Source: a virus
Strand: one strand, 5' to 3'
DNA length: 22,293 nt
IMG/VR virus record: IMGVR_UViG_3300034630_000006
Location: 1 to 22,293 of that record
Shown: positions 1,782 through 18,070 of the stretch, in pieces
How the letters are laid out: each line of letters starts with the position of its first letter
Position numbering within the stretch: position 1 is the stretch's first letter
Made by a program: the position numbers and the translations under genes
The notes under the pieces: model-generated
What the model saw: the letters and a program-made list of their open reading frames with translations, nothing else
The model's database searches: none
What the model was told of the DNA's origin: nothing

Positions 1782-2077
1782 GGGCGGTCGAAGGTCGCTA
1801 GCGCGCGCGGTCGTCATCCCGCCCACCGGAACTGCTCTCGCTCGGGAGCAGCAGGCGAGTAGCTCCCTGCAAACGCCCGATTTCTCGTTCACGTGCGCGC
1901 CCCGCATTCATGCGGCGCGCGTTTGCACCTTTCCTAGAAGACCTTCCGTTCGTTTCGTCGCTTTAACCTGACGCTGACTGCGAAGTCGGTCCGATCTTGC
2001 GATCCAGTAGCGACTGGGCCGCGGGCGCAAACGCGTGTGGCCGAGAGGCGGCGGAAGCCAACCACCGGAGTAGATCA
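1782..2077 (+). other. intergenic region with two stem-loops after the amidohydrolase
   Basis: No gene is supported here. Two inverted repeats are visible: CTGCTC (1832-1837) with GAGCAG (1846-1851), and a longer one at about 1893-1921 in which CCGCAT pairs with ATGCGG and flanking GCGCG pairs with CGCGC across one mismatch. Only short T runs follow the second, so it is at best a weak terminator for the amidohydrolase. A GGAG at 2067-2070 serves the next gene. Confidence 0.4.
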
Positions 2078-3058
2078 ATGACGACCACGCGCAAAGCGGC
2101 ACGATATGATCAAACCGCCAGGCCGGCCCCGAAAACGGCACAGCTCCCGAGGCAAGCGACTGCCCTTGATATGAGCGCCTTCCGCTACCCTGATCGCCGC
2201 CAGCCGGAAATCCTGGATGCCCAGCCTACCGGCGCTCAAGCGGGACGTGCACAATTGTTCGCGCAGGCTGACCGCGAAACGGAGCAGCGGGCGCTTCAGA
2301 GCTTGCTCGCCCGCCGGGAAGCAGAGGCGGAAGCTGCAAGAGAGCAACAGGCGCGTGCCGCCGAGGCGGCTGAAAATCAGCGCATCAAAAGACACCAGGA
2401 CGAGTTCAACGCCGCCCCCTGGTACCAAAAGGCGGCGGTTGCAACGCAAGACATCATGGGCATTACAACCGATTCCGCCACGTTCGGTGCGATGAAGTAT
2501 CCGGTCGCCGCACTGGAGGCGGCAACCTCTGATGAAACCTTCGACCAGCGACTGAAAGCCTATGACGACAATCTGCAGGCCGCTCGTGATCGTGCAGGGT
2601 CCGCCGCATTGGCGGCCCAGCTCGCCGGCGGAATTGCGACAGGGGCCGCGCTGGAAAAGTCCGGATTGGCACTGGCAAGTAACCCTGTGGCCAAGAACAT
2701 GGCCGGTTGGAAGGGGCATGTTGCTCGCGGCGGCAGGAGCGCCATCGATGGCGCCGTGCAGGGGTTTGCCGAAGCGGTGTTTCGTGGAGAGCCGATTGGT
2801 CGGGGAACGCTGACCGGTGCGGTCTCAGGTCTCGGTGGCAGCGTGACCGGTGATATGGTTTTTCCGGCCGCCAACCCGGTTCCAAAGGTCAACCATGATC
2901 CGCTGGACTTCATCGACGCGGCCAATGGCCTAGCCGGCGCTGCGGCCGGCGAAGCGGTCGGGCAGACCTACGACTCCATCAAGGACTATCTTGCTGACCG
3001 TCCGCGCAGGGCCAGTGCATACACTAATTCCGGCTGGCAAAACCGCGAAAGATATTAG
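2078..3058 (+). CDS. probable internal virion / ejection-type structural protein
   Basis: The 326-residue protein has a disordered N-terminus (1-55), a highly charged, Ala/Glu/Arg-rich coiled coil at about 60-110, then APWYQKAAVATQDIMGITTDSATFG (113-137) followed by a region containing RLKAYDDNLQAARDRAG and long Gly/Ala-rich hydrophobic stretches. The combination of WYQK, a TFG motif and a charged helix followed by Gly/Ala-rich segments recalls proteins annotated as internal virion or structural proteins in proteobacterial podoviruses; this is pattern memory, not a proven homology. The ATG at 2078 has GGAG seven bases upstream and is preferred over in-frame starts back to 1997. Its position between portal-like and scaffold genes agrees with a virion role. 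An accessory block begins directly after it. Confidence 0.5.
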   Translation: MTTTRKAARYDQTARPAPKTAQLPRQATALDMSAFRYPDRRQPEILDAQPTGAQAGRAQLFAQADRETEQRALQSLLARREAEAEAAREQQARAAEAAENQRIKRHQDEFNAAPWYQKAAVATQDIMGITTDSATFGAMKYPVAALEAATSDETFDQRLKAYDDNLQAARDRAGSAALAAQLAGGIATGAALEKSGLALASNPVAKNMAGWKGHVARGGRSAIDGAVQGFAEAVFRGEPIGRGTLTGAVSGLGGSVTGDMVFPAANPVPKVNHDPLDFIDAANGLAGAAAGEAVGQTYDSIKDYLADRPRRASAYTNSGWQNRERY

Positions 3059-3160: not shown

Positions 3161-3451
3161 ATGAGAGGCGTGATCTGCAGGCTGGCCTTGTGCCTGGCGG
3201 TTGTCCTCACCTGCGCGCCCGTCGCGCGATCTGCGGACGTCCCGACGGCAGCAGGTCGGACGGTGCCGGATGCCGGAGCGGCCGAGACTGAGGGCAGCAT
3301 CGCGGCCTTCCTGAAATCCAACCCGAATTGCCTCGAATTTACCGATCAATGCTCGCACTGCGCTGTCGTCAACGGCGTTGCCGAGTGCTCGACGGCGGAG
3401 ATTGCCTGCATCAAGCGGGAAAACCAATGCACCAAATGGGCAGGCAAGTAG
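3161..3451 (+). CDS. small secreted Cys-rich protein
   Basis: A strong AGGAGG sits about 8 bases before the ATG at 3161. The first ~25 residues form a classical Sec signal peptide (basic RGVICR, hydrophobic LALCLAVVLTC, cleavage near ARSA). The mature ~70-residue protein ends in a compact domain with six Cys (NPNCLEFTDQCSHC, then GVAECSTAEIACIKRENQC), probably paired as disulfides in the periplasm. No function is recognisable. It runs towards the minus-strand gene that ends at 3459, leaving only 7 bases between the two stops, and it opens the first accessory block. No LexA-like box is visible upstream. Confidence 0.75.
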   Translation: MRGVICRLALCLAVVLTCAPVARSADVPTAAGRTVPDAGAAETEGSIAAFLKSNPNCLEFTDQCSHCAVVNGVAECSTAEIACIKRENQCTKWAGK

Positions 3452-3458
3452 AGCCGTG

Positions 3459-3698
3459 CTAAAGCCCGGACTGCAGACAAGGGGCGCCGACTACTTCCGT
3501 TGCCAAGGCTCTTCGGGCAAACTTCAATGCGGCGTGCACCGCCAATTTGATCGGCACGGCGATGAGGAGAACGAGCGCCAACTGGACCAGGAACGATTGC
3601 TCCGGGAAGGTGTGTTCGACAAACCGTATGATCAGAAAGCCAATTGCCAGGTCGACCACCAATTCGACGAGCTCAGACTTCTTGGATTTTTCGGACAC
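3459..3698 (-). CDS. small membrane protein, paralogue A
   Basis: From a GTG at 3698 the product is 79 residues: a basic SEKSKK start, then two hydrophobic segments (LVVDLAIGFLIIRFV, and LVQLALVLLIAVPIKLAV) separated by EHTFPEQSF, and a basic end. It aligns along its length with the product of 3791-3997: both share KSKK, then D/EHxFPExxFLV, then a second hydrophobic segment with VP. That alignment decides the GTG start; an in-frame ATG at 3740 is possible but lacks a ribosome binding site. It is the last of three minus-strand genes that probably form one operon read from the box-bearing repeat at 4464-4501. Function unknown; holin-like, toxin-like or exclusion roles are all conceivable. Confidence 0.6.
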   Translation of the reverse strand: MSEKSKKSELVELVVDLAIGFLIIRFVEHTFPEQSFLVQLALVLLIAVPIKLAVHAALKFARRALATEVVGAPCLQSGL

Positions 3699-3790
3699 TG
3701 GGATTTCTTGTTGACGACGGCTCGAGCGTGGACCTGACATGCAGAAGGTGACTACACGGTCCGCTTCGGGCGCGCAGTGACCGAACTCTG

Positions 3791-3997
3791 TTACTTGCGT
3801 CGCCAGTTCCTGCTACCGAAGACGACTGCCGCATCGAGCGCAATGCCGACTGGCAAGATCACGGCGAGGCTGGCAGCCGCCCGAACCAAGAACGTCGATT
3901 CCGGGAAAGCGTGGTCGATGACCTTTGAAACCAACAGGACGAGGGCAACGCCGATCGCGACGCGGAAGAATTCAAATTTTTTGGATTTTGCGGGCAT
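3791..3997 (-). CDS. small membrane protein, paralogue B
   Basis: This 68-residue protein starts MPAKSKKFEFF and has two hydrophobic helices (RVAIGVALVLLVSKVI and AAASLAVILPVGIALDAAVVF) joined by DHAFPESTFLV, ending in the basic NWRRK. An AGG lies 8-9 bases upstream of the ATG at 3997. The similarity to the gene at 3459-3698 is clear by eye, including the conserved HxFPExxFLV loop, so the two arose by tandem duplication and then diverged. I see no known family. It sits between the other two membrane-protein genes of the minus-strand operon. Confidence 0.65.
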   Translation of the reverse strand: MPAKSKKFEFFRVAIGVALVLLVSKVIDHAFPESTFLVRAAASLAVILPVGIALDAAVVFGSRNWRRK

Positions 3998-4069: not shown

Positions 4070-4366
4070 TTAAAACCCGCGGGTGACGGCGAGGTAAGCG
4101 ACCAGGCACAGGACCCAGAATAGCGCGGCAAAGAGTGTGCCCATACCCGAGCTGAGCAGATAGCGGCCGTTTTCCTGGTGCTTCAGGCCCAACCAGTTGA
4201 AGCCGGTGCCGGCGGCGTAGAGGTCTTCAACCTTTATCCTGCCGAAGCTGAGGAACGGTACGAGGACGCGCGCCACACGATGCAGGAGAAAGCCGACGAC
4301 GATGATATCGAGAATGTCGAGGACGATCCCAGCGATGGCGTCCAGGGCAACTCCGACTTTCTTCAT
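4070..4366 (-). CDS. two-helix membrane protein
   Basis: The 98-residue product starts MKKVGVALDAIAG with GGGGA about 8 bases upstream on the minus strand. It has a first hydrophobic region at about 5-28 (IAGIVLDILDIIVVGFLL), a soluble loop with SFGRIKVEDLYAAGTGFNWLG and a second hydrophobic segment at about 76-94 (LFAALFWVLCLVAYLAV). It is the first gene of the minus-strand operon, beginning about 108 bases from the LexA-like box copy at 4483-4497. In-frame starts up to 4519 exist but would run through that box. No family is recognised; the product is predicted to be an inner-membrane protein. Confidence 0.6.
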   Translation of the reverse strand: MKKVGVALDAIAGIVLDILDIIVVGFLLHRVARVLVPFLSFGRIKVEDLYAAGTGFNWLGLKHQENGRYLLSSGMGTLFAALFWVLCLVAYLAVTRGF

Positions 4367-4613: not shown

Positions 4614-5231
4614 ATGGAAGATTTCATTTTTCCGGGCCGTGCGAAGCCCGGCTCCGGAACCGTTGACAAGCGCAATCTGCCAAGCCGCGGCGCGGGAAAT
4701 CTAAGCCCCGAGGATGCGAGGGCCTATGCCGACGACCTTTTGCGCAGCGCTCTTGAGGACCCGTCGGCATATACGGCGGAAGGGCTGCGGAAATCTCTGG
4801 GTAAGCTGTCTGAGGGTGGTGACGGGACCTACAGCGCCAGGCCGCGGAAGGGCCTCGGTGGGATGCAGGGAAATCTTGAGGGCGTAAAGACCGAACTTAA
4901 CACCCTGCAGTCCGAGGTCAAGAACGTCGACGGGATGGCGGCTCTGAAGGATATCGTTTCGTCGATCCAATCGATGCAGGAGCTGCTGGCCGACAAGGAA
5001 CAACAGGGCTTCTATGAGGATCCTTATAGAAATCAGCCGAAGTTGCCGGACAATTGCGAAGAGCTCCCCTGGAACAACTCATCGCAGGCGCGGCCCATTT
5101 CCCTCGGGGCCTCGAATGGCAACAAGGATGCGCCACAGCCCTTCCGCTGCGTAACGCCTCCTACGCCCTGGAACAACCCGAAGCGGCAGCCCATTTCACT
5201 GAGGAAAGCGCTCGACACATGGAGGGAGTGA
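4614..5231 (+). CDS. unknown protein with a repeated PWNN...PISL motif
   Basis: The 205-residue product begins MEDFIFPGRAKPG; GAAGGA seven bases before the ATG at 4614 supports this start over a GTG at 4560. It is hydrophilic, with a helical, charged centre (GNLEGVKTELNTLQSEVKNV, then an Ile/Gln-rich helix) likely to form a coiled coil. The C-terminal third carries two copies of a short motif: LPWNNSSQARPISLGAS and TPWNNPKRQPISLRKAL. No signal peptide, membrane segment or known domain is visible. It may be a virion or effector-like protein; I cannot choose. Its stop is 13 bases from the stop of the minus-strand gene 5245-5655. The upstream gap contains repeat copy 1. Confidence 0.65.
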   Translation: MEDFIFPGRAKPGSGTVDKRNLPSRGAGNLSPEDARAYADDLLRSALEDPSAYTAEGLRKSLGKLSEGGDGTYSARPRKGLGGMQGNLEGVKTELNTLQSEVKNVDGMAALKDIVSSIQSMQELLADKEQQGFYEDPYRNQPKLPDNCEELPWNNSSQARPISLGASNGNKDAPQPFRCVTPPTPWNNPKRQPISLRKALDTWRE

Positions 5232-5244
5232 GGGGTCGTTCTGG

Positions 5245-5655
5245 CTATTTGAGGCTTTCGAGCGCGATGTAGAGTGTGCCGAGTTTCAGGCGGCCGGCGC
5301 CTGTCTTGTAGTAGAGCACTTCGGCGTGCGGGCGGACGTTTGCGACGGAGGTCTCGTAAGTTCCATCCGCGAAGAAGCAGCAGGGATTGTCGCCATCCCA
5401 GGACGACGCAACACGCAGGCGGTAGCTGTCGTAGCCCATGAAGAAGCGTAAGCCGATCTCATAATCGCCGACCGTGAGGGTGCAGACGCTGTTATCGCCG
5501 CACCAGTTCGTCGCGTGATCAAAGGTCTTGTCGTCCTTGAGCAGAAAGGCCTTGACGAGGTAGCGCGGCTCTCCCGATTGGCCGCTCGCCGAGGTGGGCG
5601 AAACCGCTGCGGCCAGAAGCAGGCCTGCCAATCCCAGGCTCGATAGTCTTCTCAT
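5245..5655 (-). CDS. secreted beta-rich protein of unknown function
   Basis: From the ATG at 5655 (GAGGAA just upstream) the product is 136 residues, beginning with a signal peptide (MRRLSSLGLAGLLLAAAVSP, cleavage near SAS-GQ). The mature part looks like a small beta-rich domain: YLVKAFLLKDDKTFDHAT, WCGDNSVCTLTVGDYEIGLRFF, then DNPCCFFADGTYETSV and a final LYYKTGAGRLKLGTLYIALE. Four Cys (a CxxxxxC pair and a CC pair) suit disulfides in the periplasm. I do not recognise the family. An in-frame ATG at 5685 would put 10 extra residues before the signal peptide and is less likely. The gene reads leftward from the second repeat copy. Confidence 0.7.
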   Translation of the reverse strand: MRRLSSLGLAGLLLAAAVSPTSASGQSGEPRYLVKAFLLKDDKTFDHATNWCGDNSVCTLTVGDYEIGLRFFMGYDSYRLRVASSWDGDNPCCFFADGTYETSVANVRPHAEVLYYKTGAGRLKLGTLYIALESLK

Positions 5656-5712
5656 GGGTTCCTCGTTCGATAGACACGCGCGCATGTGACCTAGAGTGGC
5701 AGATTGCTCTGG

Positions 5713-6129: not shown

Positions 6130-7080
6130 ATGACGAACGATAGTGCCAACCTGCCTTTCGGCGGGAGCAAAACCGTTGACCCCGCGACCGGGCTTGACGA
6201 TGCCGATCTCGATTTCTGGGAGCCTGAAGATGAGGCCAACCTGGAGCCGGGAGGGCTAAGCGGGTACGGCGCAGAAGAAGCCATTGACCAAGGCCACGAC
6301 GACACGGCCCATCCCGAAGACGAGCCGACTGATCCTGACGAGGATACGGCGGCCAACGACGACGCGGATTTTCTTGTTGTGCTCAAGGGTGGCGAGGAAG
6401 TGCCGTTTTCCGAGCTGAAGCTCGGCTACATGCGCGACCGCGACTACCGTCACAAGACGCAGGACATCGCCAACCGCGGGCGGGCTCTGGAGGGCATGGC
6501 AAGCCGGGTGGCCCAATCGGCCAACGCCTTTGCCAACCTCCTCGCCAGCCAGATCCCGCCGGAGCCGCCCGAACACATGGCGGCGCTCGACCCGGACGGC
6601 TATCGGCGGCAATGGGCACTGCACCAGGCGGGGCTCCAGAGGATCGACGAGGTGCTGTCGATTGCCGAGGCGCCGGCGACCGTGGTGGATGCCCTTTCGC
6701 AGGCTGCGAGTGACGAACAGCTGGACGTGGAAAATGCCAGGCTGATCGAAGCCTTTCCCGAAACGGCCGATGCGGAGGGGCGTCTCTCCTTCTTCGCCGG
6801 TGCTTTCGATGTAGCGGAAGCGCTCGGCTTTTCCGAGGCCGAGGTGCGGGAAGTGACCGATCATCGCCTTTTCAAGCTCGCGCACTATGCCCGTCTCGGC
6901 CTTGCCGCCGAACACGCGAAAAAGCGGGCGATGAGCAAGCTGAACAGGGCACCGGCAACGGTGGCGCGACCAAGGCCGGCAGGCAAGGCAGTGCAGGCGC
7001 CGGGCCGGAGCCGGGAAGCGATGCAGCGGCTGACCAAAAGCGGCTCCATCCGTGACGCCATGGGTGTCGACTTCGACTGA
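6130..7080 (+). CDS. head scaffolding protein
   Basis: The 316-residue protein has the layout of phage scaffolds: a very acidic, disordered N-terminus (about 15-82, rich in Asp and Glu), a short folded segment with EEVPFSELKLGYMRDRDYRHKTQ (about 90-112), a long helical middle, and a basic C-terminus (RAPATVARPRPAGKAVQAPG, then SIRDAMGVDFD) of the type that binds the capsid protein. The FSELKLGYMRDRDYRHKT string is characteristic of scaffolds that precede DUF5309/SU10-type capsid genes. It would guide procapsid assembly in the cytosol and be lost before DNA filling. The gene directly precedes the capsid gene, as expected. Confidence 0.85.
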   Translation: MTNDSANLPFGGSKTVDPATGLDDADLDFWEPEDEANLEPGGLSGYGAEEAIDQGHDDTAHPEDEPTDPDEDTAANDDADFLVVLKGGEEVPFSELKLGYMRDRDYRHKTQDIANRGRALEGMASRVAQSANAFANLLASQIPPEPPEHMAALDPDGYRRQWALHQAGLQRIDEVLSIAEAPATVVDALSQAASDEQLDVENARLIEAFPETADAEGRLSFFAGAFDVAEALGFSEAEVREVTDHRLFKLAHYARLGLAAEHAKKRAMSKLNRAPATVARPRPAGKAVQAPGRSREAMQRLTKSGSIRDAMGVDFD

Positions 7081-7256: not shown

Positions 7257-8252
7257 ATGGCTGTCGTAGCAAACACCTTCACGACCTCGCAGGCCGTGGG
7301 CAACCGCGAGGATCTTTCCGACGTCGTTTCCCGCATTACGCCGGAGGATACGCCGATCTATTCGCTCATCGAAAAGGGCAAGTGCAACACGCACCACCCG
7401 GAATGGGAGACGGACGAACTGGCCGCGCCCGGCGAAAACATCCGCCAGGAAGGCGACGAATACACCTTCGGCACGATCATCGCTCCGACCAGGCTCGGCA
7501 ACTACACCCAGATTCTGCGCAAGGACTGGATCATCTCGGCCACCCAGGAAGTGGTGGCGGAAGCCGGCAACGTGCAGAAGCGCAAATACCAGAAGCTGAA
7601 GAAGGGCGTGGAGATCCGCAAGGATCTCGAATATGCGATCGCCGACACCAATGCTTCCGTCTCCGGCGCCACCCGTGAACTCGGCTCGCTGCCGACCTGG
7701 CTGACGACCAACGTCTCGCGCGGGGCAGGCGGCGCCAATGGCGGCTACAACCCGACGACGGGCCTGACGGTGTCGCCGACCGACGGCACGCAACGCCCCT
7801 TCACCAAGGCGATCCTCGACCAGGTGATGCAGACGGGCTACCAGAACGGCGCCAACTTCCGCCATGTCTCGGTTTCGCCTTACGTCAAGAGCGTGTTCGT
7901 CACCTTCATGTCCGACGCCAACGTGGCGCCGTTCCGCTACGCCGTCTCGCAGGGCGGCGAGCGCAACACGATCGTGGCGACCGCCGACTACTATGAAGGC
8001 CCGTTCGGCACCGTGATGATCCACCCGAACCGGGTGCAGGCGGGCAGCGCCAAGCTTGCGCGCAACGCCTACTTCCTCGACACCGACATGCTCTCCTTCC
8101 TCTGGCTGCGCAACATCCAGGAAGACAAGGCGGTGGCCAAGACCGGCGACGCGGACAAGGGCGTGATCATCGGCGAGGGAACGCTGAAGGTGCACAACGA
8201 AAAGGGCCTCGGCGTTGCGGCCGACTTGTTTGGGTTGAGCGCTGCGAGCTGA
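7257..8252 (+). CDS. major capsid protein (DUF5309 / SU10-like)
   Basis: The 331-residue product is recognisable as a DUF5309-type major capsid protein (HK97 fold). It begins NTFTTSQAVGNREDLSDVV, continues with RITPEDTPIYSLIEKGK, EWETDELAAP, and TQILRKDWIISATQEVV, and ends with the typical DMLSFLWLRNIQED ... HNEKGLGVAADLFGL. AAGGA lies 7 bases upstream of the ATG. It follows the scaffold gene. A second, broken copy of its 3' end is found at 11220-11448. A stem-loop follows at 8309-8330, after which the order of head genes is interrupted by a 4.5-kb accessory block. Confidence 0.93.
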   Translation: MAVVANTFTTSQAVGNREDLSDVVSRITPEDTPIYSLIEKGKCNTHHPEWETDELAAPGENIRQEGDEYTFGTIIAPTRLGNYTQILRKDWIISATQEVVAEAGNVQKRKYQKLKKGVEIRKDLEYAIADTNASVSGATRELGSLPTWLTTNVSRGAGGANGGYNPTTGLTVSPTDGTQRPFTKAILDQVMQTGYQNGANFRHVSVSPYVKSVFVTFMSDANVAPFRYAVSQGGERNTIVATADYYEGPFGTVMIHPNRVQAGSAKLARNAYFLDTDMLSFLWLRNIQEDKAVAKTGDADKGVIIGEGTLKVHNEKGLGVAADLFGLSAAS

Positions 8253-8308
8253 TCGAGCGGAATAGGCCTTTCTCGCGCACCGATACCTAACCGGAGCGCT
8301 GACGGCTT

Positions 8309-8409: not shown

Positions 8410-9228
8410 GTGACCAAACAGGACAAACCGCTGAATTCGATGGGGCTACCCGTCAGAATCCAATCCGTTCGAGAGGCGATGGGGTACTTCGACGAAAATC
8501 CGATATTGACCGGCAACAAGGCTTTTGCCGACGTGGAGGCGCGGCGCGGTGAGAACGCACTCTTCAAGCATCCGCCGCCGAGCGAACTTATGAACGGCGA
8601 TTTTCGCAAGGCACCGATGCACTTTCGCGGTACGCTGACGGATACCACGAAGTTCAGCAAGCAACATCAGGCGGTGCCAACCGAGCGCCTAAAGCCGACC
8701 ACGGACTACGACAAACTCTCGGATAACATCGCGTTGCGTCTGAAGCGAGATCTGCAACGGGATCTGATCATGACCGAACAGGACGCTGCCGCCTTCGTCG
8801 GAAATTTCGACCACGAAAGCGGCGGATTCGGACGGGTGTTCGGCAATTTGTGGCAAAATGGCCGGGTAAACGGAAATGCTTATGGCTATCCGCAATGGGA
8901 CGATCGCAGGGAAGCTTTCTTCAACTGGGCGGAAGAGCGCGGGCTGCCGCCCGAATCCTATGAGGCAAATTATGGCTTCATAAAGCACGAACTCCTCAAT
9001 GGCGAGCGTGGTGTACGGGAGCCGTTGTCGACTGCCAAGGATATCGACGACGCTACATACGTCGTCGCCGACAAGTACGAGCGTCCCAACCCCGCCAAGA
9101 TGAAGCTTGGAGAGCGTCAAGAGTTGGCGCGGCGAGCGCTGGGGCTTCCGGATTACTCTGTCGAGACACCCGTTCCCCCTGCCAATCCGATGCGCAATCC
9201 CATCTCAGATCCACCCTGGCGGCGCTAG
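8410..9228 (+). CDS. phage tail-lysozyme-domain protein
   Basis: From the GTG at 8410 (AGAGG upstream) the product is 272 residues. Residues about 115-245 match the phage tail lysozyme pattern: TEQDAAAFVGNFDHESGGFG with the probable catalytic Glu at 136, YGYPQWDDRREAFFNWAEERG, NYGFIKHELLNGERG and a final YVVADKYERPNPA. The ~110 residues before it have no recognised domain and could anchor it in the particle. Such enzymes cut peptidoglycan during DNA entry, unlike the endolysin at 20527. Because it has no signal peptide, a virion role is more likely than secretion. Its place right after the capsid gene, inside an accessory block, is unusual, since these domains normally sit with tail genes. 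An alternative is an effector or lysis accessory. Confidence 0.75.
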   Translation: MTKQDKPLNSMGLPVRIQSVREAMGYFDENPILTGNKAFADVEARRGENALFKHPPPSELMNGDFRKAPMHFRGTLTDTTKFSKQHQAVPTERLKPTTDYDKLSDNIALRLKRDLQRDLIMTEQDAAAFVGNFDHESGGFGRVFGNLWQNGRVNGNAYGYPQWDDRREAFFNWAEERGLPPESYEANYGFIKHELLNGERGVREPLSTAKDIDDATYVVADKYERPNPAKMKLGERQELARRALGLPDYSVETPVPPANPMRNPISDPPWRR

Positions 9229-9520: not shown

Positions 9521-11170
9521 GTGTTCAGGTGGTGCGTGTCGGCCCTGGCGGCCTTGTTTGTCTTGAGTTCGGCGATCCCGGCGGCGTCCTCGCAACCGTC
9601 ATCCGGCAGTGCAAGACAGGTTTTTGGCGCGTTCCTCGCCTGCAAGGCGGACATCTTTTCGCTTCTCGGCGGTGACAGGGCGGATTTTGGCGCAGCAGTG
9701 ATCGGGCCCTATGACTGGAGCATGTCGGATGGTGTCACAGGGCAAACGATCGCGTTCGCGGCGCCTGTCGACGTCGGTAGCCTGTCGCTCACCGGCTATG
9801 TCCAGTTTGAGGCCGTCGGCATTGCTGTTCCGCACTTCACGTGGGGTTTTGAGGTCGAGCGGCGCGTATCTGACGTCGCCAAGGCGATCGAGGCAATGCT
9901 TCCCGGTGCCAGGTTCGTGGCAAAGGATGGTGGTGCGCTCGAGTTGAAGCTCGATGCCCAATCGGTTCCGCAGGGCGACGCATCGGTCGCGCCGGAGGAC
10001 AGTTACAGAAAAATCGTCGTTCGCCAGGCAAACGATCCTTCGCGATCCTTCGTCATGTGTGACGCGTCCAAGGATCGAATGGCGGAACTGACGACCGATG
10101 AGGAGACTGGCAGGAGGCGCCTCCCGGACGCTGAGGACCTGTTCCCACCGGCGAGGCGGCCAGCCGTCAAGACCAACCATGTTCTTGACGCGTTCGTCGC
10201 CTGCAAGCCCTCTTTCTTCGAGGTGTTGAAGGCTGAAAGACGCATCTTCCCGCGGGTCCGTATCGAGCCTTGGGAGAGCCCGGACAACGCGCCTCACATT
10301 CCCGAAGCGGAGAAGACCTACAACGAAACCGTGACATTCGAACACCTGGTCGAGATTGGTGGCCTCCGCATCGTCCGGTTCTTTCAACGAAAGACGGTTC
10401 AGTCTGGTGAACCGACGCGCTTTGCCTGGGCCCTTCAGGTCGCTCAAACGCCCGATGGAGCCGCTCGTGCTATCTCGGCTCAGTACGGTGCGAGATTTAC
10501 GGATTACTGGAGTTTGGTTGACAAGGATGTCGGTGCCACGCCGGTTTCGCAGCACCTGACGTTGCGTTCCTACTTCGATCCCGATGAGCAGGCGACGGTA
10601 ACCTGCGCACCCGACGAAGCCGAGACGAAGGACTTTCGCCTGCCGGAAGCAGCCGAGACCTTCGGCTGGGCCCAACTTGGGCCACCACCGGTGGGCCGCG
10701 GCAACCGGCTGATCAATGCGCTGCTGCAATGCCGGGCGGATTTCTTCGAGGCGCTGGGCGAGGAAAAAAATGCTTTCGGCAAGGTGGCGTTCAAGCAGGC
10801 CGCCGGCCCATACCGCAAGGATGGAGACGCAGAACGCGCGCCAATGCGTGTGGCGTTCGAAAAGCCGGTCTATGCCTCGGGCTTCACGCTGACAGGATAC
10901 ATTCAGCGGCGCGTGAATGTTGCAGGCGAGATGAAACTGAGATGGGGTTTTCAATCACCGGACGGCATGAGCAGGATCGAGCGGACCACGGAGAGACGCA
11001 CAGGAAGCGTTCGTGTGTCCGGCAAGGGGTGGTTGTTCGACCTTGAGACCGACGAAACCGGCTACACACCGTCTTCGGATCTCGAGTTTGACGAGGGATT
11101 CTTGGGGTGCACGACGCCGCTCGCATCAGGCATGGAACTGCTGAAATCCGGTGACCTCTTTTTGAAATAA
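9521..11170 (+). CDS. secreted protein with three Cys-bracketed repeat domains
   Basis: The 549-residue protein starts at a GTG with GGAGGG just upstream and has a Sec signal peptide (cleavage near AASS-Q25). Three domains follow, each opening with a Cys in an [AL]xxC[KR]xxFFxxL-like motif and closing with a Cys: C41-C180, C228-C362, C404-C530. Domains 1 and 3 share a central xFxxPVxxxxxxLTGYxQ motif and W-G-F about a dozen residues on; domain 2 is more diverged. The Cys pairs suggest one disulfide per domain in the periplasm or outside the cell. Apart from C5 in the signal peptide there are no other Cys. I do not recognise the family. One further copy of the domain is in the protein at 11767-12459. 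A perfect LexA-type box precedes the gene, so it is probably induced with DNA damage. Superinfection exclusion or lysis control are guesses only. Confidence 0.85.
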   Translation: MFRWCVSALAALFVLSSAIPAASSQPSSGSARQVFGAFLACKADIFSLLGGDRADFGAAVIGPYDWSMSDGVTGQTIAFAAPVDVGSLSLTGYVQFEAVGIAVPHFTWGFEVERRVSDVAKAIEAMLPGARFVAKDGGALELKLDAQSVPQGDASVAPEDSYRKIVVRQANDPSRSFVMCDASKDRMAELTTDEETGRRRLPDAEDLFPPARRPAVKTNHVLDAFVACKPSFFEVLKAERRIFPRVRIEPWESPDNAPHIPEAEKTYNETVTFEHLVEIGGLRIVRFFQRKTVQSGEPTRFAWALQVAQTPDGAARAISAQYGARFTDYWSLVDKDVGATPVSQHLTLRSYFDPDEQATVTCAPDEAETKDFRLPEAAETFGWAQLGPPPVGRGNRLINALLQCRADFFEALGEEKNAFGKVAFKQAAGPYRKDGDAERAPMRVAFEKPVYASGFTLTGYIQRRVNVAGEMKLRWGFQSPDGMSRIERTTERRTGSVRVSGKGWLFDLETDETGYTPSSDLEFDEGFLGCTTPLASGMELLKSGDLFLK

Positions 11171-11219: not shown

Positions 11220-11448
11220 CGTCTCGCGCGGGGCAGGCGGGCAGCGCGAATCTCGCGCGCAACGCCTACTTCCTCGACACCGACATGCTCTCCTTCCTCT
11301 GGCTGCGCAACATCCAGGAGGACAAGGCGGTGGCCAAAGCCGGCGACGCCGACAAGGGCTGATCATCGGCGAGGGTACGTTGAAGGTGCACAACGAAAAG
11401 GGCCTCGGCGTTGCCGCAGATCTGTTTTGGCTGAGTGCTGCGAATTGA
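11220..11448 (+). pseudogene. remnant of a second major capsid gene (3' end)
   Basis: Positions 11233-11448 match the last ~218 bases of the capsid gene (8036-8252) with about 20 differences by eye, mostly at third codon positions. The preceding bases (11220-11240) match an earlier part of the capsid gene (7712-7732) perfectly. The two parts join at an 8-base microhomology (GCAGGCGG), which corresponds to a 311-base internal deletion and shifts the frame. One base is also missing in GACAAGGGC-TGATC (near 11361), a second frameshift. The fragment has no start and cannot make capsid. Because the differences are largely silent, it comes from a related but separate phage capsid gene and is not a fresh copy of 7257-8252. 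Confidence 0.9.
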
Positions 11449-11678
11449 TCCCGGAGTCCTGCACATTGGAAAGGGGTGGACATTGGTTCGCCCCCGATCG
11501 ATCGAAAACTCGCTGCAGAGGCTGCCGTCGGGGCGAGCAGTGCGACGAGCATTCCGCTCTTGCCGTGGAGGCACTGCACGAAAAGCGGGATCTGCAGCGG
11601 ATGCAGGCTAACGTCGATGGCTGGCCGTCAAAACCTCCTCTGCACCGCATAAGCTGTGGAGATGGTTGGATTTCAACC
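11449..11678 (+). other. intergenic stretch after the capsid remnant
   Basis: No gene is supported. Short ORFs overlap in all frames with irregular composition and no ribosome binding sites. It may contain further decayed phage sequence, but I could not match it to anything else in the window. Confidence 0.3.
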
Positions 11679-11766: not shown

Positions 11767-12459
11767 TTGGTCTACACCGTTGTCACTCTCTTCGGGCTGT
11801 TCGTCGTGCTGGTCGGGCTGGTGTTGGCGACAATCGATCCCTATTCGTTTGAAGACATGAGCCGCGGCGGAATCTGCGAAAGAAGCGGTGGTGTAGTAGC
11901 GCCGGAATGCGCAATGCCACCGGAGAGCGCCGAGAAGGTGTTGGCTGCATTGCTCACGTGCGACGCCCAATTCTTCAAGACCCTTGACGAAGAGAAGGCT
12001 GTTTTCAAGAGGGCGAATATCGTGGCTCACCCTTACAACCTTCTCGACGCAGGCGAGCCGCGGACTTCCGTTGTGCCGTTCTCTCAGCCCGTCGAGGCGT
12101 ACGGACTTCACCTCACCGGTTACACGCAACAGGCCGTGCGGGGAAAGAGCGACTACGCGTGGGGGTTTTATGCGTCGGAACAGCCTGACGACGTCGAGCG
12201 CGCACTGGAAGCAGCCCGCAGCGACGCGCTTGCAGCAAACCCACGCGCCGGCGCGTTCGTGATAACGGCATCCGACACCCCTGATTTTCCTGGAACACGG
12301 CTTGGTTGTCGCGTTGCCGGGGATGGCGCCTCCACCATCGAGGACTTGCCGTCGGTTTACGATCTGTTCCTGTCTCGAGACATCACTACTTCACTCTTCG
12401 ACAAGTTCGATCTCTTCGTCGCGTCGGCGATGAAGACCGTTTCGGATTTTGGGCGATAG
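11767..12459 (+). CDS. membrane-anchored single-domain relative of the triple-repeat protein
   Basis: The frame opens with a hydrophobic segment (VYTVVTLFGLFVVLVGLVLAT), probably an uncleaved signal anchor, then a short linker with two Cys and one copy of the Cys-bracketed domain: LAALLTCDAQFFKTLDEEKAVF (C65), VPFSQPVEAYGLHLTGYTQQ, YAWGF, closing with TRLGC (C181). The listed start is a TTG, the first standard start in frame, giving 230 residues. However, seven codons earlier an ACG at 11746 would give (M)KRWLKVLVYTVV, a typical anchor start, and GAGGAGG sits 4 bases before it. So the true start may be ACG or a mutated ATG. The domain is shared with 9521-11170 and both genes have the same SOS promoter design. 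Function unknown; predicted to face the periplasm. Confidence 0.75.
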   Translation: MVYTVVTLFGLFVVLVGLVLATIDPYSFEDMSRGGICERSGGVVAPECAMPPESAEKVLAALLTCDAQFFKTLDEEKAVFKRANIVAHPYNLLDAGEPRTSVVPFSQPVEAYGLHLTGYTQQAVRGKSDYAWGFYASEQPDDVERALEAARSDALAANPRAGAFVITASDTPDFPGTRLGCRVAGDGASTIEDLPSVYDLFLSRDITTSLFDKFDLFVASAMKTVSDFGR

Positions 12460-12773: not shown

Positions 12774-12786
12774 CATGGAGATTTTT

Positions 12787-12954
12787 ATGTCCGAAGCAAA
12801 GAAACCTGTTCCGGTCCGTCTCGTCTACGACGTCTGGTTCCAGGAAGGGGAACGCGCGGCCGCCGGCGCGATCGTATGCGTCAGCCTGGAACAGGCCAAG
12901 GCGTTGATCGCCGCTGGCAAGGCGGAGCGCGCCGACCCGCTGCCTGGGGAGTGA
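12787..12954 (+). CDS. small conserved phage head protein, 55 aa
   Basis: GGAG six bases upstream supports the ATG at 12787 (MSEAKKPVPVRLVYDVWFQEG). The protein reads as a small beta-barrel type: RLVYDVWFQEGERAAAGAIVCVSLEQAKALIAAGKAERADPLPGE. The pattern 'hydrophobic strand - D-W - G - ARxAAGxxV - AxxLIxAGxAERADP' is common in short phage proteins located after capsid genes, which I recall as the DUF7210 type. It starts right after the terminator, 3 bases before the next gene. A structural or head-decoration role is possible but not shown. An in-frame ATG at 12775 would add four residues. Confidence 0.7.
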   Translation: MSEAKKPVPVRLVYDVWFQEGERAAAGAIVCVSLEQAKALIAAGKAERADPLPGE

Positions 12955-12957
12955 GCC

Positions 12958-13281
12958 ATGCTGATCCGTGATGGAGCCTGGACGCTCTACGACCATGACA
13001 GAATGACCGGCCGCTCCGTCTGGCACCACTTCGACGGAGAGAAGGACGTCTACCGTGTCGATTATCCCGTCGACAACCTGGTGAGCGAAAACCAGGCGGT
13101 GCGCAACAGCGCCGAAAGGATCTGGCAAGGCGATTGGCATCGCGTCGCCTCGGTCCCGCTCAACATTGCGCATGCTTCGGGTCTGGTGACGGCACATTCC
13201 GAAGGTGACGACCGTTTCGTCAAACGCTTCCTCAACGACGGCGACAACCGCGCCTGGCGCACCAAGGAGGGCAGGCTATGA
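12958..13281 (+). CDS. conserved phage protein of the connector operon
   Basis: The 107-residue protein (MLIRDGAWTLYDHDRMTGRSV...) has a beta-rich start, a central VSENQAVRNSAERIWQGDWHRVASVPLNIAHASG and an end FVKRFLNDGDNRAWRTKEGRL. The combination 'RVASVPL ... LND-DN-xxRT-xGR' is a pattern of small phage proteins found just before the adaptor genes of short-tailed phages. I cannot attach a biochemical role. GGGGAG precedes the ATG at 12958, and its stop overlaps the next start (ATGA at 13278). Confidence 0.7.
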   Translation: MLIRDGAWTLYDHDRMTGRSVWHHFDGEKDVYRVDYPVDNLVSENQAVRNSAERIWQGDWHRVASVPLNIAHASGLVTAHSEGDDRFVKRFLNDGDNRAWRTKEGRL

Positions 13282-13877
13282 GCATTGCAGACTATGCCGC
13301 GTTGCTTGTCGATGCGGGTGAATACAGCGGGCGCAACGACATCGCGCATCTCTTTCCGCGTTTCGTCGGACTTGCCGAATTGAAACTCAACAGGGCACTG
13401 CGCGTGAGCGAGATGGAAGCGACGGCGTCGATCAATGTCGTCGACGGCGACGCGCCTCTGCCGATGGACTTTCTCGAAGCTCGACAGGTCTTGACGGCTA
13501 CGGGCCGGCCGATCCGCGCAGGCGCCTTGCAGCAATTTTCCGACATCGGCCTGACGGGCGGTGGCACCCCACTCGGCTATTCGATCGTCGGCAACCGGAT
13601 CAAAGCCTTTCCAGCCGGCAGCTACGGGCTGACGGTGACCTACTACCGCAAGATCCCGCCGCTTTCGGCCGTCAACCCCACAAACTGGCTGCTGGAGCAG
13701 GCGCCCGACGCCTATCTCTATGGTCTTGTCGAGGAGATCGCCATCTGGGAGCGCGACGCCGGCAAGGTTGGAGCCGCGCAACAGCTGAAGATGTCGGCGC
13801 TTTCCGGGCTCGGTATTGCCGATGAACGCGCGCGCTGGGGCGATGCCCAGATGATGGTGGGAGGGGCAACACCATGA
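13278..13877 (+). CDS. head-tail adaptor protein
   Basis: The 199-residue product has the features of SU10-type phage adaptors: an N-terminal helix with LFPRFVGLAELKLNRALRVSEMEA, then VDGDAPLPMDFLEARQVL, a beta-rich section with GTPLGYSIVGNRIKAFP and LTVTYYRKIPPLS, and a C-terminal NWLLEQAPDAYLYGLVEE helix. Such proteins dock on the portal and connect it to the tail tube. Overlaps of 4 bases with the genes on both sides point to tight translational coupling. No residues appear to be missing. Confidence 0.75.
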   Translation: MSIADYAALLVDAGEYSGRNDIAHLFPRFVGLAELKLNRALRVSEMEATASINVVDGDAPLPMDFLEARQVLTATGRPIRAGALQQFSDIGLTGGGTPLGYSIVGNRIKAFPAGSYGLTVTYYRKIPPLSAVNPTNWLLEQAPDAYLYGLVEEIAIWERDAGKVGAAQQLKMSALSGLGIADERARWGDAQMMVGGATP

Positions 13878-14476
13878 CCTTGCTTTCGGCAATCAACGAG
13901 GTCTGCGACATCGTTTCGCTCGACCGCTTCGAGAATATCTATGGTTCGAACGATCCGAACGCCCAGACGATGGTGGCGCTGGCGCAAGAGGCGGGCGAGG
14001 AGATTTCCCGCCGTGGCGACTGGCGCCGCCTGCTGAAGCAGCACGTTGCGATCCTTTCCCCATCGAACTTGCCGGGAGACTACCAGCGATTGACGCCCGG
14101 TGGCGCAGTGCGGACCGCGTCCGGCATCTGCTTCAGGCCGATCGCCAACAGCTCGCAATGGGCGATCGTCAGAGGGACTGAATCGACGCAGCCCTATTTC
14201 TTCCTGCGCGACAGCCAGGTGCTATTTTCTCCGACAGCGGCCGGGATTGGAGCGGTGATCGACTACATCTCGAAAAACTGGGTGTTGGGCGACCCTTTCG
14301 AGGAGCGCGACACATTGCGAGCGGACGACGACCGGACGCTGTTTCCCGAACGTCTGCTTGGCAAGGGCATCCTCTGGCGCTGGAAACGGCAAAAGGGCCT
14401 GCCGTTCGATGACAGTCTAGCGGAATTCGAAGCCGATCTCCTGCAGGAGATCAATGCAGATCGGGGTGTGTCATGA
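13874..14476 (+). CDS. tail accessory / head completion protein (P22 gp4-like)
   Basis: The 200-residue protein starts MTLLSAINEVCDIVSLDRFENIYGSNDPNAQTMVALAQEAGEEISRRGDWRRL, a helical start like that of proteins resembling the P22 tail accessory factor. It then becomes beta-rich (YFFLRDSQVLFSPTAA, IDYISKNWVL) and ends with FPERLLGKGILWRWKRQKGLPFDD. It would extend the portal-adaptor ring and help close the filled head. The similarity is by pattern only. It overlaps both neighbours by four bases. Confidence 0.65.
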   Translation: MTLLSAINEVCDIVSLDRFENIYGSNDPNAQTMVALAQEAGEEISRRGDWRRLLKQHVAILSPSNLPGDYQRLTPGGAVRTASGICFRPIANSSQWAIVRGTESTQPYFFLRDSQVLFSPTAAGIGAVIDYISKNWVLGDPFEERDTLRADDDRTLFPERLLGKGILWRWKRQKGLPFDDSLAEFEADLLQEINADRGVS

Positions 14477-16089
14477 GAGCGAACCTGAAGCCAGGGCGGA
14501 TCGGGCAGAGCAATCGCGGCGCAACCAGCGTCGGTCGTCGGCAGTCTTCGCAGCCAGTCACCTTTCCGGCGCCCGTCAACGGGCTGGTAACCGCCGCGGA
14601 CATGGCTTCGCAGCAATCGGGATCGGCAACCGTGCTTCGAAACTTTTTTCCGACACTCGTTGGGTGCCGCATTCGGGGCGGCTCGCGAAAACGCGGTCGC
14701 GCAGCGGATGGCGGGGTTATCCGAAGCGCCTTCAAGTACAAGTACGGGGCTGTCGAAACCTTGTTCATGGCGACCGACAAGGCAATCTACGACATGACGT
14801 CGCCAACAGCGCCTCCGGCCGTGACAGCAGCCGTCGTCGGCGGGCTTTCTGGAGGGGACTGGTGCACCTTCCAGCATACCAACTCAGGCGGTTCGCATCT
14901 CATCTGCCTGAACGGAGCGGACCCGCGTCGCGTCTACAATGGCAGCAGTTGGGCGACGAACCCACCGATCACCTTTCCAGACACATCGACCACCGCGCAG
15001 CTCAACTACGGCTGGCTGTTCAAGAACAGGCAGTTCTTTCTGAAGAATGCGACGCTCGACGCGTACTATCTGCCGGTCAATGCGATTGGCGGGGCGGCGG
15101 CCGTGTTTCCACTCGGCGGGGTGATGAAGAAGGGGGGCTCGTTGCAGACAGGTTTCTCCTGGTCGCTCGAAAGCGGCGACGGGCTTTCCGACCTCTGCGT
15201 CTTTGTCTCGAGCGAAGGGGAGGTGGCCGTTTATGCTGGAAGTGATCCGAGCGACGCCAACAGCTTTGCGCTGAAGGGGGTCTACCAGATCGGCCGGCCG
15301 CTCGGAAAGAACGCCTGGATCCGCGCCGGCGGCGATATCCTGATTGCCACCACGGATGGTCTGACGCCGATTTCGCAGGTCTTCGAGCGTGATCGCCAGG
15401 CATTGAGCCAGGTTTCGATTTCCCGACCGATCGAGGACGAGTGGCGCCGGGCGGCAAACGCGACAGGCGCGGGCTGGGTGATCAAGCAGTGGCCTGAGCA
15501 AAACCTCGTCTTCCTCGCCTTTCCCGCCAACAGTGTGATGTCCGACACGACCTTCGTGCTCAACGTCTTGAGTGGCCGCTGGTCGACGGTCAGCAACTGG
15601 AAGGCGAGTTGTTACGAGACGCTGCAGGGGGGACTGTTTTTCGGTACCGACGGCGGTTTCTGCTGGCAGGGCGACTCGACCGGGACCGACGACGGGCTGA
15701 CCTTCACCGCTGCCTATCTCTCACAGTTTACGTCGGCCGGGCAGTTCGGACAGCGTGCACAGGCCACGCTTGCCCGTATGTATTTCCGCGCGAAGAGCAG
15801 ACCCATGGTGCGGCTCTTTGCACGCGCCGACTTCGACAGGACGATCCCGCCGGCCTCTCAAGTCACAATCGGTGACGCCGCCTCATCCGAATGGGATGTG
15901 GGGCTTTGGGACAAGGGTGTCTGGGATTCATCGACAGAGCAGCTCCGATACAGTTTTCGCCAGAATGTCCGAGCGGCCGGCGACATGCTTGCAGTCGGCT
16001 GCGCCATTACGTCCGGCGGGATCGCGAGGCTCGACATCGAAGTGGATCTCGCCACGTTGCAGGTCGAGGCCGGTGAGGCCAGCACATGA
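14473..16089 (+). CDS. tail hub / packaged-DNA stabilisation-like protein
   Basis: The 538-residue protein is beta-rich with repeated Gly-Asp/Trp turns, for example FMATDKAIYDMT, GWLFKNRQFFLKNATLDAYY, VFVSSEGEVAVYAGSDP, DILIATTDGLTPIS and VLNVLSGRWSTVSNW. This is the make-up of the beta-propeller hub proteins of short-tailed phages, including P22 gp10-type stabilisation proteins. The early motif FPAPVNGLVTAADMAS and the order after an adaptor and a gp4-like gene agree. It would form the base of the tail to which fibres attach. It overlaps its neighbours by four bases on both sides. Confidence 0.65.
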   Translation: MRANLKPGRIGQSNRGATSVGRRQSSQPVTFPAPVNGLVTAADMASQQSGSATVLRNFFPTLVGCRIRGGSRKRGRAADGGVIRSAFKYKYGAVETLFMATDKAIYDMTSPTAPPAVTAAVVGGLSGGDWCTFQHTNSGGSHLICLNGADPRRVYNGSSWATNPPITFPDTSTTAQLNYGWLFKNRQFFLKNATLDAYYLPVNAIGGAAAVFPLGGVMKKGGSLQTGFSWSLESGDGLSDLCVFVSSEGEVAVYAGSDPSDANSFALKGVYQIGRPLGKNAWIRAGGDILIATTDGLTPISQVFERDRQALSQVSISRPIEDEWRRAANATGAGWVIKQWPEQNLVFLAFPANSVMSDTTFVLNVLSGRWSTVSNWKASCYETLQGGLFFGTDGGFCWQGDSTGTDDGLTFTAAYLSQFTSAGQFGQRAQATLARMYFRAKSRPMVRLFARADFDRTIPPASQVTIGDAASSEWDVGLWDKGVWDSSTEQLRYSFRQNVRAAGDMLAVGCAITSGGIARLDIEVDLATLQVEAGEAST

Positions 16090-16535
16090 GGCTTCTATGG
16101 GGCGGCGATGGCGATCCCGTCACGAACCGGGTGATCGCTGATTTCGTCGCCGCCCATATCACCGGCTGCGCCAGAGGCTTCACAGCGTTCACCACCATGG
16201 GAATCGTCGGCGATGACGGCAGGCTCGTTGCCGGTGTCGTGTACCACAATTACGCGCCGGAAGCGGGCGTGATCGAGCTTTCGGCCGCTTCGACCAGCAA
16301 GCGCTGGCTGACCCGACAGGTGCTCAAGGGCATGTTTGGTTATCCTTTCGGGGAAATCGGCTGCCAACTGATCGTTCTGCGCGTGTCGGAGCGCAATGCC
16401 GGCATGATCGCGATTGCAGAGCGCTTCGGCTTTGCGTCCCACCGTATTCCCCGCCTTCGCGGGCGGGATGAAGCGGAAATCATCTTCACACTTTCAGACA
16501 GTGACTGGCGGGCGCATCCCGTCAACCAGAGGTAG
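16086..16535 (+). CDS. GNAT-family acetyltransferase-like protein in the tail operon
   Basis: The 149-residue protein fits the GNAT fold: GFTAFTTMGIVGDDGRLVAGVVYHNYAPEAGVIELSAASTSKRWLTRQVLKGMF (strands 2-4 and the helix after the acetyl-CoA site), then IVLRVSERNAGMIAIAERFGFASHRIPRLRGRDEAEIIFTL. The usual Q/R-x-x-G-x-G/A pyrophosphate loop is not clearly present, so acetyl-CoA binding may be altered or lost. GNAT proteins are common at this place in related phages; whether they modify a tail protein, a host target or nothing is unknown. It overlaps the hub gene by four bases and lies five bases from the next start. Confidence 0.75.
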   Translation: MRLLWGGDGDPVTNRVIADFVAAHITGCARGFTAFTTMGIVGDDGRLVAGVVYHNYAPEAGVIELSAASTSKRWLTRQVLKGMFGYPFGEIGCQLIVLRVSERNAGMIAIAERFGFASHRIPRLRGRDEAEIIFTLSDSDWRAHPVNQR

Positions 16536-16540
16536 ATACC

Positions 16541-18070
16541 ATGGGAAAACCCAAAGCACCAAAACCGCCGGATCCCCGCCAAACCGCGGCGGCGCAGACC
16601 TCAACAAACATTGGCACGGCAATAGCCAACGGCACGCTGGGCAACATCAACCAGGTGACGCCTGACGGCAACCTGACCTACTCCCAGACCGGCAGCCGCA
16701 AATGGACCGACCCGATGAACGGTGCCACCTACGATCTGCCGGAATGGACGGCGACGCAGACGCTCTCGCCGGCGCAGCAGGCGATCAAGGACCAGACGGA
16801 CGCTGCGGAAAAGAACATGGCGACGCTCGCCAACAATCAGTCGGCCCGGTTGAACGATCTGCTCGGCCGACCGATGGACCTCTCCGGAGCGCCGGCGGCC
16901 GGCAACCCCAATGCGATAGGCCTGCCGCAGTACCAGCAATATGGTTCGGGCCCGGCCCTGCAGACGGCGCTGCCCAGCACGGGCAATGTTCAAAGTGCTG
17001 TGGCCAATGCCGGGACGATCCAGACTGCGCTTGGCAATGCGGGCGACATCAAGCGCAGCTACGAGAGCAACTTCGATACCAAGCGCTATGAAGATGCGCT
17101 GATTGCCCGCATGAACCCTCAGCTGGACCGTGATCGCGCTGCACTCGAGACGCAACTTGCCAACCAGGGCCTTCAGCCCGGGTCCGAAGCCTACAACAGG
17201 GCAATCGACCAGGCGACACGTCAGGCAAACGATGCGCGTTTCGGCGCCATCCTCAATGCCGGGCAGGAGCAATCGCGGCAGGTGGGGCTTGCCCAGCAGG
17301 TCGCTGCCTTCCAGAACGCGGCCCAGCAGCAGGCCTACGGCCAGATGCTTCAAAACGGGCAATTCGCCAACCAGGCACAAAACCAGCAATACACCCAGAA
17401 CGCCAACAACATGCAACTGGCCAATGCCGCCCAACAGCAGACCTTCAACCAAGCACTCGCGGCGTCCGGGTTCAACAACGACGCCCTGCAGCAGATGCAT
17501 CAGAACAATCAGGCGGCAACGGCTGCCAACAACACGCTGAGGGATCAGACCTTCAATGCCGAGCAGGCCCGGCTCGCGGCGCAAAACGCTGCCCGCACCC
17601 AGTATCTCAACGAGATGTATGCGCAGCGCAACCAGCCGATCAACGAGATTTCGAGCCTGCTTTCCGGTGCCCAGGTCAGCAATCCCAACTTCGTGCCAAC
17701 CCAGGGGCAAAGAATTGAGGCGCCGGACTACGTGGGGATGGTGCAAAACAACTATCGAAACCAGCTCGATGCTTACCAATCGCAGCTGAGCGCGCGCACA
17801 GGGGCGCTTGGTAACGTGCTGGGCATGTTCAAATCCCTACGCGAGAGCGACCGGCGTCTGAAGAAAGACATCAGGAAAGTTGGCAAGCTCGATGGGCATG
17901 CGCTCTATGAGTATCGCTATCGGGGGGAGCCGGCGCACGGCGCCAAACATATCGGCGTGATGGCGCAGGAGGTGGAAAAATCCCGCCCCGATGTCGTCAG
18001 CCTCAGGCCCGACGGGATGCGCCGCGTCGACTACGGCCGGCTCTTCGGCGCCGGGCGCAAGCCGCGCTAG
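16541..18070 (+). CDS. tail/virion protein with S74 self-cleaving chaperone domain
   Basis: The 509-residue protein starts MGKPKAPKPPDPRQTAAAQT, has a long Gln/Asn/Ala-rich helical middle (about 200-360) and ends with an intramolecular chaperone domain of the peptidase S74 type: SDRRLKKDI at 436-444, then LDGHALYEYRYRGE, HIGVMAQEVEKSRPDVV and MRRVDYGRLFG. The Ser436 and Lys441/442 of SDRRLKKD match the catalytic Ser-Lys pair, so the chaperone may cut itself off after trimerisation. The Gln/Asn-rich centre is typical of proteins that enter the virion or span the envelope at ejection. GAGG upstream supports the ATG at 16541. It may be a fibre or an internal protein. Confidence 0.85.
   Translation: MGKPKAPKPPDPRQTAAAQTSTNIGTAIANGTLGNINQVTPDGNLTYSQTGSRKWTDPMNGATYDLPEWTATQTLSPAQQAIKDQTDAAEKNMATLANNQSARLNDLLGRPMDLSGAPAAGNPNAIGLPQYQQYGSGPALQTALPSTGNVQSAVANAGTIQTALGNAGDIKRSYESNFDTKRYEDALIARMNPQLDRDRAALETQLANQGLQPGSEAYNRAIDQATRQANDARFGAILNAGQEQSRQVGLAQQVAAFQNAAQQQAYGQMLQNGQFANQAQNQQYTQNANNMQLANAAQQQTFNQALAASGFNNDALQQMHQNNQAATAANNTLRDQTFNAEQARLAAQNAARTQYLNEMYAQRNQPINEISSLLSGAQVSNPNFVPTQGQRIEAPDYVGMVQNNYRNQLDAYQSQLSARTGALGNVLGMFKSLRESDRRLKKDIRKVGKLDGHALYEYRYRGEPAHGAKHIGVMAQEVEKSRPDVVSLRPDGMRRVDYGRLFGAGRKPR

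Follow-up and report, generated by a model that had tools for sequence, protein, structure and literature searches.

In systems of the contact-dependent inhibition (CDI) and Rhs type the delivery domain is fused to the toxin, on a long stalk protein, while Ivy, PliC/MliC and PliI are inhibitors of lysozymes. The 22,293 nucleotides analysed here (positions 1 to 22,293 of the IMG/VR virus record IMGVR_UViG_3300034630_000006, “the window”) carry at 9521-11170 a gene that we compare with these systems and with others built on phage genes; its product is likely to be the periplasmic immunity protein of a polymorphic toxin cassette, the toxin being probably delivered by a domesticated phage-like particle. 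Capsid-based delivery of toxins between bacteria is a proposal derived from the genomics of MuF loci, the phage-capsid-like polymorphic toxin systems (Zhang et al. 2012, PMC3482391; Jamet et al. 2017, PMC5576092), which, like the window, hold toxins and adjoining immunity genes within phage head loci. By contrast with MuF, the effectors are here separate small proteins with a short terminal tag, in a podovirus-type locus; they stand in tandem arrays bounded by duplicated ends of the capsid or portal gene, and those acting on the wall go with a new exported immunity family. As Pfam recognised no MuF domain in the effectors scanned, we regard the system as a variant of the MuF type rather than a member of it.

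Variable toxins, cognate immunity, downstream orphan modules and recombination at a shared anchor bring the locus close to CDI and Rhs (PMC3482391), but its anchor is the end of an upstream structural gene and it has no long stalk protein. The bacteria-killing type IV secretion system effectors of Xanthomonas (PMC10933484, PMC6536674) are likewise diverse, with a common terminal recognition region and immunity partners, some of them against wall enzymes, whereas the delivery genes are here those of a phage head and tail, and the tag has about 12 residues. Tailocins, among them rhizoviticin of Allorhizobium vitis (PMC10811719), are also phage-derived weapons of Rhizobiaceae; here however the locus retains genes for capsid, scaffold, portal and terminase and also codes for protein effectors, and the presence of head genes excludes the headless tailocin class. 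Lysozyme inhibitors and muramidase immunity proteins (the three named above; Tsi3, PMC3792639) are exported and block lysozyme or muramidase in the periplasm, as proposed here, but the 9521-11170 protein matches no known lysozyme-inhibitor family in Pfam, NCBIfam or PDB sequences, nor any significantly by fold. No published description of the system was found in the literature searched, subscription papers and preprints being outside its scope.

An earlier note, made from the letters of this DNA alone, had read in 9521-11170 an exported protein of three tandem, cysteine-bracketed units belonging to no named family.

9521-11170, plus strand: exported protein of three domains, predicted to act in the periplasm as immunity protein against the lysozyme effector (profile, tree and export data)
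9554-10174, plus strand: unit 1, profile envelope (E 2e-54)
10145-10693, plus strand: unit 2, profile envelope (E 3e-60)
10661-11167, plus strand: unit 3, profile envelope (E 1e-59)

The open reading frame (ORF) encodes 549 residues from a GTG start at 9521, which follows a ribosome-site-like GGAGGG. A hydrophobic export segment is present at the N-terminus, as the claim of export implied, and the cysteines lie at residues 5, 41, 180, 228, 362, 404 and 530, so that the brackets C41-C180, C228-C362 and C404-C530 stand as first read. The three units and the single copy encoded by 11767-12459 are homologous: pairwise Smith-Waterman scores range from 101 to 140 for shuffle means of 28-31 (z 14-25), and for every pair among the four copies none of 500 shuffles matched the real score. 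An iterated profile seeded with these four copies (three of 9521-11170, one of 11767-12459) collected 43 units across loci, those of the window with E below 1e-48, which bears out the tandem repeat. In the 40 units aligned the bracketing cysteines (C24 and C150 in the numbering of unit 3), F29, F39, F66 and Q82 are invariant, and W95 and F97 nearly so; each unit holds one disulfide-compatible pair, in keeping with the single disulfide per domain that had been predicted. The motifs PV..LTGY.Q and W-G-F, announced as common to units 1 and 3, are found in both and in the fourth copy too, unit 2 being more divergent. As for this fourth copy, its homology holds, but it belongs to a separate gene, with a membrane-anchor-like N-terminus.

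AlphaFold2 gave a pLDDT of 78 and a pTM of 0.76 for a single unit, i.e. moderate confidence, and 73.6 and 0.53 for the whole protein, in which the elements follow one another in much the same way in each unit; this leaves standing the shared fold that a structure prediction was to look for. The protein has no match in Pfam, PHROG, NCBIfam, PADLOC or PDB sequences, whole-unit profile searches included, and the predicted unit fold has no Foldseek match below E 0.1 (best 0.64 in PDB, 0.14 in BFVD); phage and plasmid collections returned chance-level matches (E 0.3-9) or none. The weak Pfam (E 0.06) and PHROG (E 0.5) matches of the fourth copy were treated as chance. As neither a family library nor a PDB sequence or fold accounts for it, the family is undescribed in the libraries searched, and is a candidate for a new fold.

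The neighbours of the family bear on its role. The gene just upstream of 9521-11170 encodes a lysozyme, and a second wall enzyme is encoded far downstream in the window:

8410-9228, plus strand, GTG start: effector with a phi29 gp13-type lysozyme domain (Phage_lysozyme2, E 7e-20), N-terminal tag QSVREAMGYFDE, no export signal
20527-21354, plus strand: endolysin, for release from the producer cell (phrog_181 endolysin, E 9e-43)

The match of the former to PDB 3csr is weak (E 0.014), with the glutamate motif HES/SES aligned. In a survey of 12 loci (eleven Ensifer-type elements and one related locus) the domain family lies 3' of cell-wall enzymes without export signals. The effectors of this array, placed after the capsid gene, are phi29-gp13-type lysozymes, a lambda-type lysozyme (PDB 1am7, E 2.5e-9), a Tlde1/YkuD-type enzyme (E 2e-6, slightly short of the curated cut-off) and two families without known activity, c35 and c110; each is followed by a member of the domain family, with one clear exception. 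The number of units varies with the partner. Members paired with the main lysozyme group have three, those paired with diverged lysozymes or with the intact lambda-type lysozyme have two, and those that go with the transpeptidase type, c35 or c110 have a single one. Similarly, in a maximum-likelihood tree of 53 units these group by partner enzyme and not by strain, the C35, LDT and C110 clades having each a support of 100/99, and the two-unit proteins mostly correspond to units 2 and 3 of the three-unit proteins. An N-terminal export segment is carried by 27 of 28 family members and by only one of 19 effectors, where it is not at the very N-terminus. Thus, as in polymorphic toxin systems, a cognate immunity gene would adjoin the toxin and act in the target compartment, c35b of the AFS element being the exception. 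The envelope function foreseen by the earlier note is in line with this exported family beside wall-acting enzymes, and on these sequence comparisons the pairing of the family with such enzymes is well supported.

Over the seven intact lysozyme pairs the identities between lysozymes follow those between family members (r=0.99), while correlations of the same identities with the capsid, scaffold, tail and g107 genes range from -0.14 to 0.27 (Mantel, 3 of 5040); the cassette therefore travels as a unit. The adjacency of an exported protein and a lysozyme gene in a phage-derived locus could also recall a control of lysis timing, the exported protein restraining the element's own endolysin and delaying release, as had once been suggested for this protein. 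This is very improbable: the syntenic endolysin at 20527-21354 is separate and far from 9521-11170, copies of the family follow array enzymes of any type, several of them unrelated, and orphan members persist.

The cassettes of this array, from one to three or more per element, fill the stretch from the capsid gene to the following head gene.

7257-8252, plus strand: major capsid protein (SU10_MCP, E 4e-82), whose 3' end is the anchor of this second array
11220-11450, plus strand: duplicated 3' end of the capsid gene, a cassette boundary (direct repeats of 7712-7732 and 8033-8254, 88-100% identity; 91.6% over 215 nucleotides)
11562-11645, plus strand: remains of an effector of c35 type (79% identity by tblastn to the intact ST2 protein, residues 158-185, E 6e-11)
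11767-12459, plus strand: single-domain family member with a membrane anchor at the N-terminus, an immunity gene orphaned by the decay of its c35 effector (C35 clade, 100/99)

Most separators of the array are copies of the capsid 3' end, 49-542 bases long and about 86-94% identical in nucleotides. The capsid gene and its homologues show a median synonymous divergence (dS) of 0.24, against 0.40 for the scaffold gene and 0.5-0.85 downstream, a dip consistent with frequent recombination at the cassette anchor. In the window, 11767-12459 is preceded by a capsid fragment and the 84-base c35 remnant, and it is 90% identical to the gene directly 3' of the intact c35 effector in ST2; the effector is also intact in G015, where terminase, portal, scaffold and a large part of the capsid gene are gone but c35 and its partner are kept. 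Orphan family members beside remnant or absent effectors are found in the window, L18, ST2, AFS, G018, G020 and G277. Such displaced orphans, together with the duplicated capsid and portal ends as recombination anchors, are features of polymorphic toxin loci, and the survival of family members beyond their effectors is the mark that would be expected of immunity genes. A single-domain relative (E 1e-8) was met in an ordinary chromosomal setting in G461, another genome of the order, and is possibly an acquired orphan immunity gene; it corresponds to L044 1453-2040, with a signal-peptide-like N-terminus and ordinary chromosomal genes around it.

Another array is found 3' of the portal gene, with portal 3' fragments between its cassettes, and its traces open the window:

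1-126, plus strand: 3' end of the portal gene, anchor of the first array (92.9% nucleotide identity to portal 1933-2058 of Ensifer LC11)
262-435, plus strand: frame-broken remnant of a portal-array effector (tblastn, 40% to residues 142-208 of the AFS effector, E 7e-10)
4070-4366, minus strand: membrane protein of family c16, probable immunity protein of glycine-zipper (pore-type) effectors

Here the partner placed after one effector (about 222 residues) is a DUF6258 protein that has no export signal (E 2e-44), and other effectors, the glycine-zipper type included, are followed by membrane proteins; family c16 stands beside tagged effectors of 253-262 residues in SD006 and L18, the matching effector being not intact in the window. 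The compartments of the partners (exported, cytosolic, membrane) therefore fit the likely site of action of each effector. DUF6258 genes and portal 3' fragments are repeated in the portal arrays of LC11, ST2, SD006 and L18 (L015, L017, L023/L024, L027); many DUF6258 copies have no effector, which makes DUF6258 a probable immunity family.

The capsid array holds at least five effector families, the portal array three. These otherwise unrelated effectors have in common a terminal tag, approximately S-[LV]-[RK]-[ED]-A-x-x-x-[WF]-x-E, which most of them carry C-terminally and the lysozyme close to its N-terminus. Diverse toxins sharing a trafficking element are again a trait of polymorphic toxin systems, although the tag is weak or absent in some. 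One gene pair of the window illustrates it:

4614-5231, plus strand: putative effector bearing the tag (score 26.2), C-terminus ISLRKALDTWRE; in several elements it is conserved next to family c17
5245-5685, minus strand: exported protein of 146 residues, probable immunity partner of 4614-5231, its convergent neighbour where both occur

When held-out genomes were scored for the tag, the best 8 of 215 ORFs were all cassette genes, one of them from a family outside tag building. Each of six families was then left out in turn: three scored above all 498 other ORFs, c35 was borderline, and the lysozyme and c110 did less well (see below). The shared tag is therefore called likely rather than proven. 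Besides, the tag resembles by eye the scaffold C-terminus SIRDAMGVDFD, but scaffolds rank 68-241 of 385 ORFs, so mimicry of the scaffold was discarded as not significant.

The window is a record classed as viral, with relatives from Ensifer and one Rhizobiales assembly, the longer assemblies showing terminase and portal genes upstream of the window region. Wherever the host flanks could be read they are the same: upstream, ddl and its neighbours or a Sel1-like gene; downstream, in most strains, an AraC-type regulator and its neighbours. Between these flanking genes no integrase or replication gene was recognised, whereas a temperate phage would show such genes and varied sites. The related prophage loci sesb2, P16 and P22, of the same genus, have an integrase-like gene and no arrays; they carry after the virion protein two large genes (about 810 and 674 residues), both missing from the elements. 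Capsids are 95-99% identical to that of the window in elements with the domain family and 82-87% in the prophage type, and in the three genomes having only a prophage-type capsid no match to the domain was found. The median ratio of nonsynonymous to synonymous divergence (dN/dS) is 0.05-0.15 in most particle genes, compared with 0.09-0.15 in flanking host genes. Because of the fixed flanks, the lack of a recognised integrase, the contrast with the prophage type and this purifying selection, the element is best read as a domesticated, still functional, podovirus-derived particle locus at one chromosomal site.

Sp of phage T4 is regarded as blocking the tail lysozyme, and a comparable superinfection exclusion can be imagined: the lysozyme would serve a working phage for entry, as an enzyme of its virion, and the exported protein would stop the entry lysozymes of related phages that come in. 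The position of 9521-11170 between capsid and tail genes, a lysozyme family known from phage tail proteins and the place where an exported inhibitor would act all suit it, and the earlier note had leaned toward a blocking of other phages. We hold it unlikely: neither gene is present in the three prophage loci, no integrase was recognised in the element, the two large genes that follow the virion protein are missing from it, transpeptidase-type partners are not known for entry, and the portal array has cytosolic and membrane partner genes. Exchangeable cassettes with unrelated wall-acting effectors, and orphans that persist, do not support that function either. A gene transfer agent, whose particle would package host DNA while lysozymes aid entry and the exported proteins shield recipients or producers from wall damage, agrees with the fixed locus, with the absence of recognised replication and integrase genes and with a terminase and portal kept under purifying selection (terminase dN/dS 0.075). 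It would leave unexplained several alternative wall enzymes, cytosolic and pore-type effectors with partners of their own, and the orphans; it seems quite improbable, but it is not exclusive of the toxin-immunity explanation.

According to the toxin-immunity explanation, the lysozyme 8410-9228 would be loaded through the short shared tag into or onto a podovirus-like particle made from the surrounding head and tail genes. After lysis of the producer, the tail fibre of the particle would bind a related bacterium and the lysozyme would enter its periplasm and cut peptidoglycan, unless, in kin of the producer, the three-domain protein, probably with one disulfide per domain, binds and blocks it there. 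Homologous recombination would bring new cassettes in at the capsid gene's 3' end and displace earlier ones downstream, where their effectors may decay and immunity genes stay as orphans, 11767-12459 being such a case. The locus would then probably be a weapon against rival bacteria. Of all this, the sequences themselves show the family, its pairing and co-variation with the enzymes, the export signals, the tags, the duplicated anchors, the orphans, the fixed locus and the purifying selection, and from them we infer inhibition of the enzyme, particle loading, delivery and killing.

Several points weigh against this explanation. The c35b effector of AFS has no adjoining intact family member, and the c35 and c110 families have no known activity. 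The co-variation of neighbours can arise from physical linkage alone, partner-specific clades and unit numbers being a stronger argument for pairing. In the leave-one-family-out scoring the tag is weak for the lysozyme family, 15 of 498 ORFs scoring as high, and one c110 member is not picked up by it. The passage of a protein from a podovirus-like tail to the periplasm is a step that we infer, and the intact terminase suggests that the particle may also package DNA.

We would put forward, more tentatively, a wider scenario: a vertically inherited podovirus-like particle of Ensifer might have been turned into a loadable protein-toxin weapon, by losing the two large virion-region genes (perhaps ejection proteins), by gaining tagged, exchangeable effectors at the ends of the capsid and portal genes, and by acquiring a new-fold immunity family of one to three domain copies against unrelated wall enzymes. 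If true, it would offer a compact case of capsid-based toxin delivery in a culturable soil bacterium, with a short tag usable to test cargo loading, and arrays that preserve a readable record of cassette gain and loss. The immunity family seems able, by repeating a single domain, to counter wall enzymes of different chemistry. Predation on bacteria has been described for Ensifer adhaerens, and its genetic basis is little known (PMC5701487); the locus is a testable candidate in this genus, and it may be speculated that the particle weapon has a part in the killing of bacteria by this species.

The other particle genes of the window are the following:

6130-7080, plus strand: head scaffolding protein (phrog_3927, E 3e-59)
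12775-18070, plus strand: particle genes past the array, i.e. head and tail proteins, a tail-region protein of 538 residues, a GNAT-like gene and a virion protein with an S74 chaperone
18325-20004, plus strand: fast-evolving tail fibre (Phage_T4_gp36, E 7e-8; median dN 0.50 between strains)

Looser dN/dS values are found for the fibre, the endolysin and the GNAT-like gene. Strains differ much more in the tail fibre than in the other particle genes, which would be expected if their targets are not the same. G277, another genome of the family, has a related locus of prophage-like kind (L038) with one frame-broken cassette of the lambda-type lysozyme, a portal-array effector and, between head genes, two large genes with an HExGH motif. 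Several elements have an M20-type peptidase/amidohydrolase gene (594-1781 in the window) between the two arrays; in SD006 and AFS none was found at that place. Finally 2075-3058 encodes a glycine-rich, possibly pore-type effector not seen in other elements, and the small exported or membrane proteins after it (3161-3451; 3459-3740 and 3791-3997, minus strand) could be its partners.
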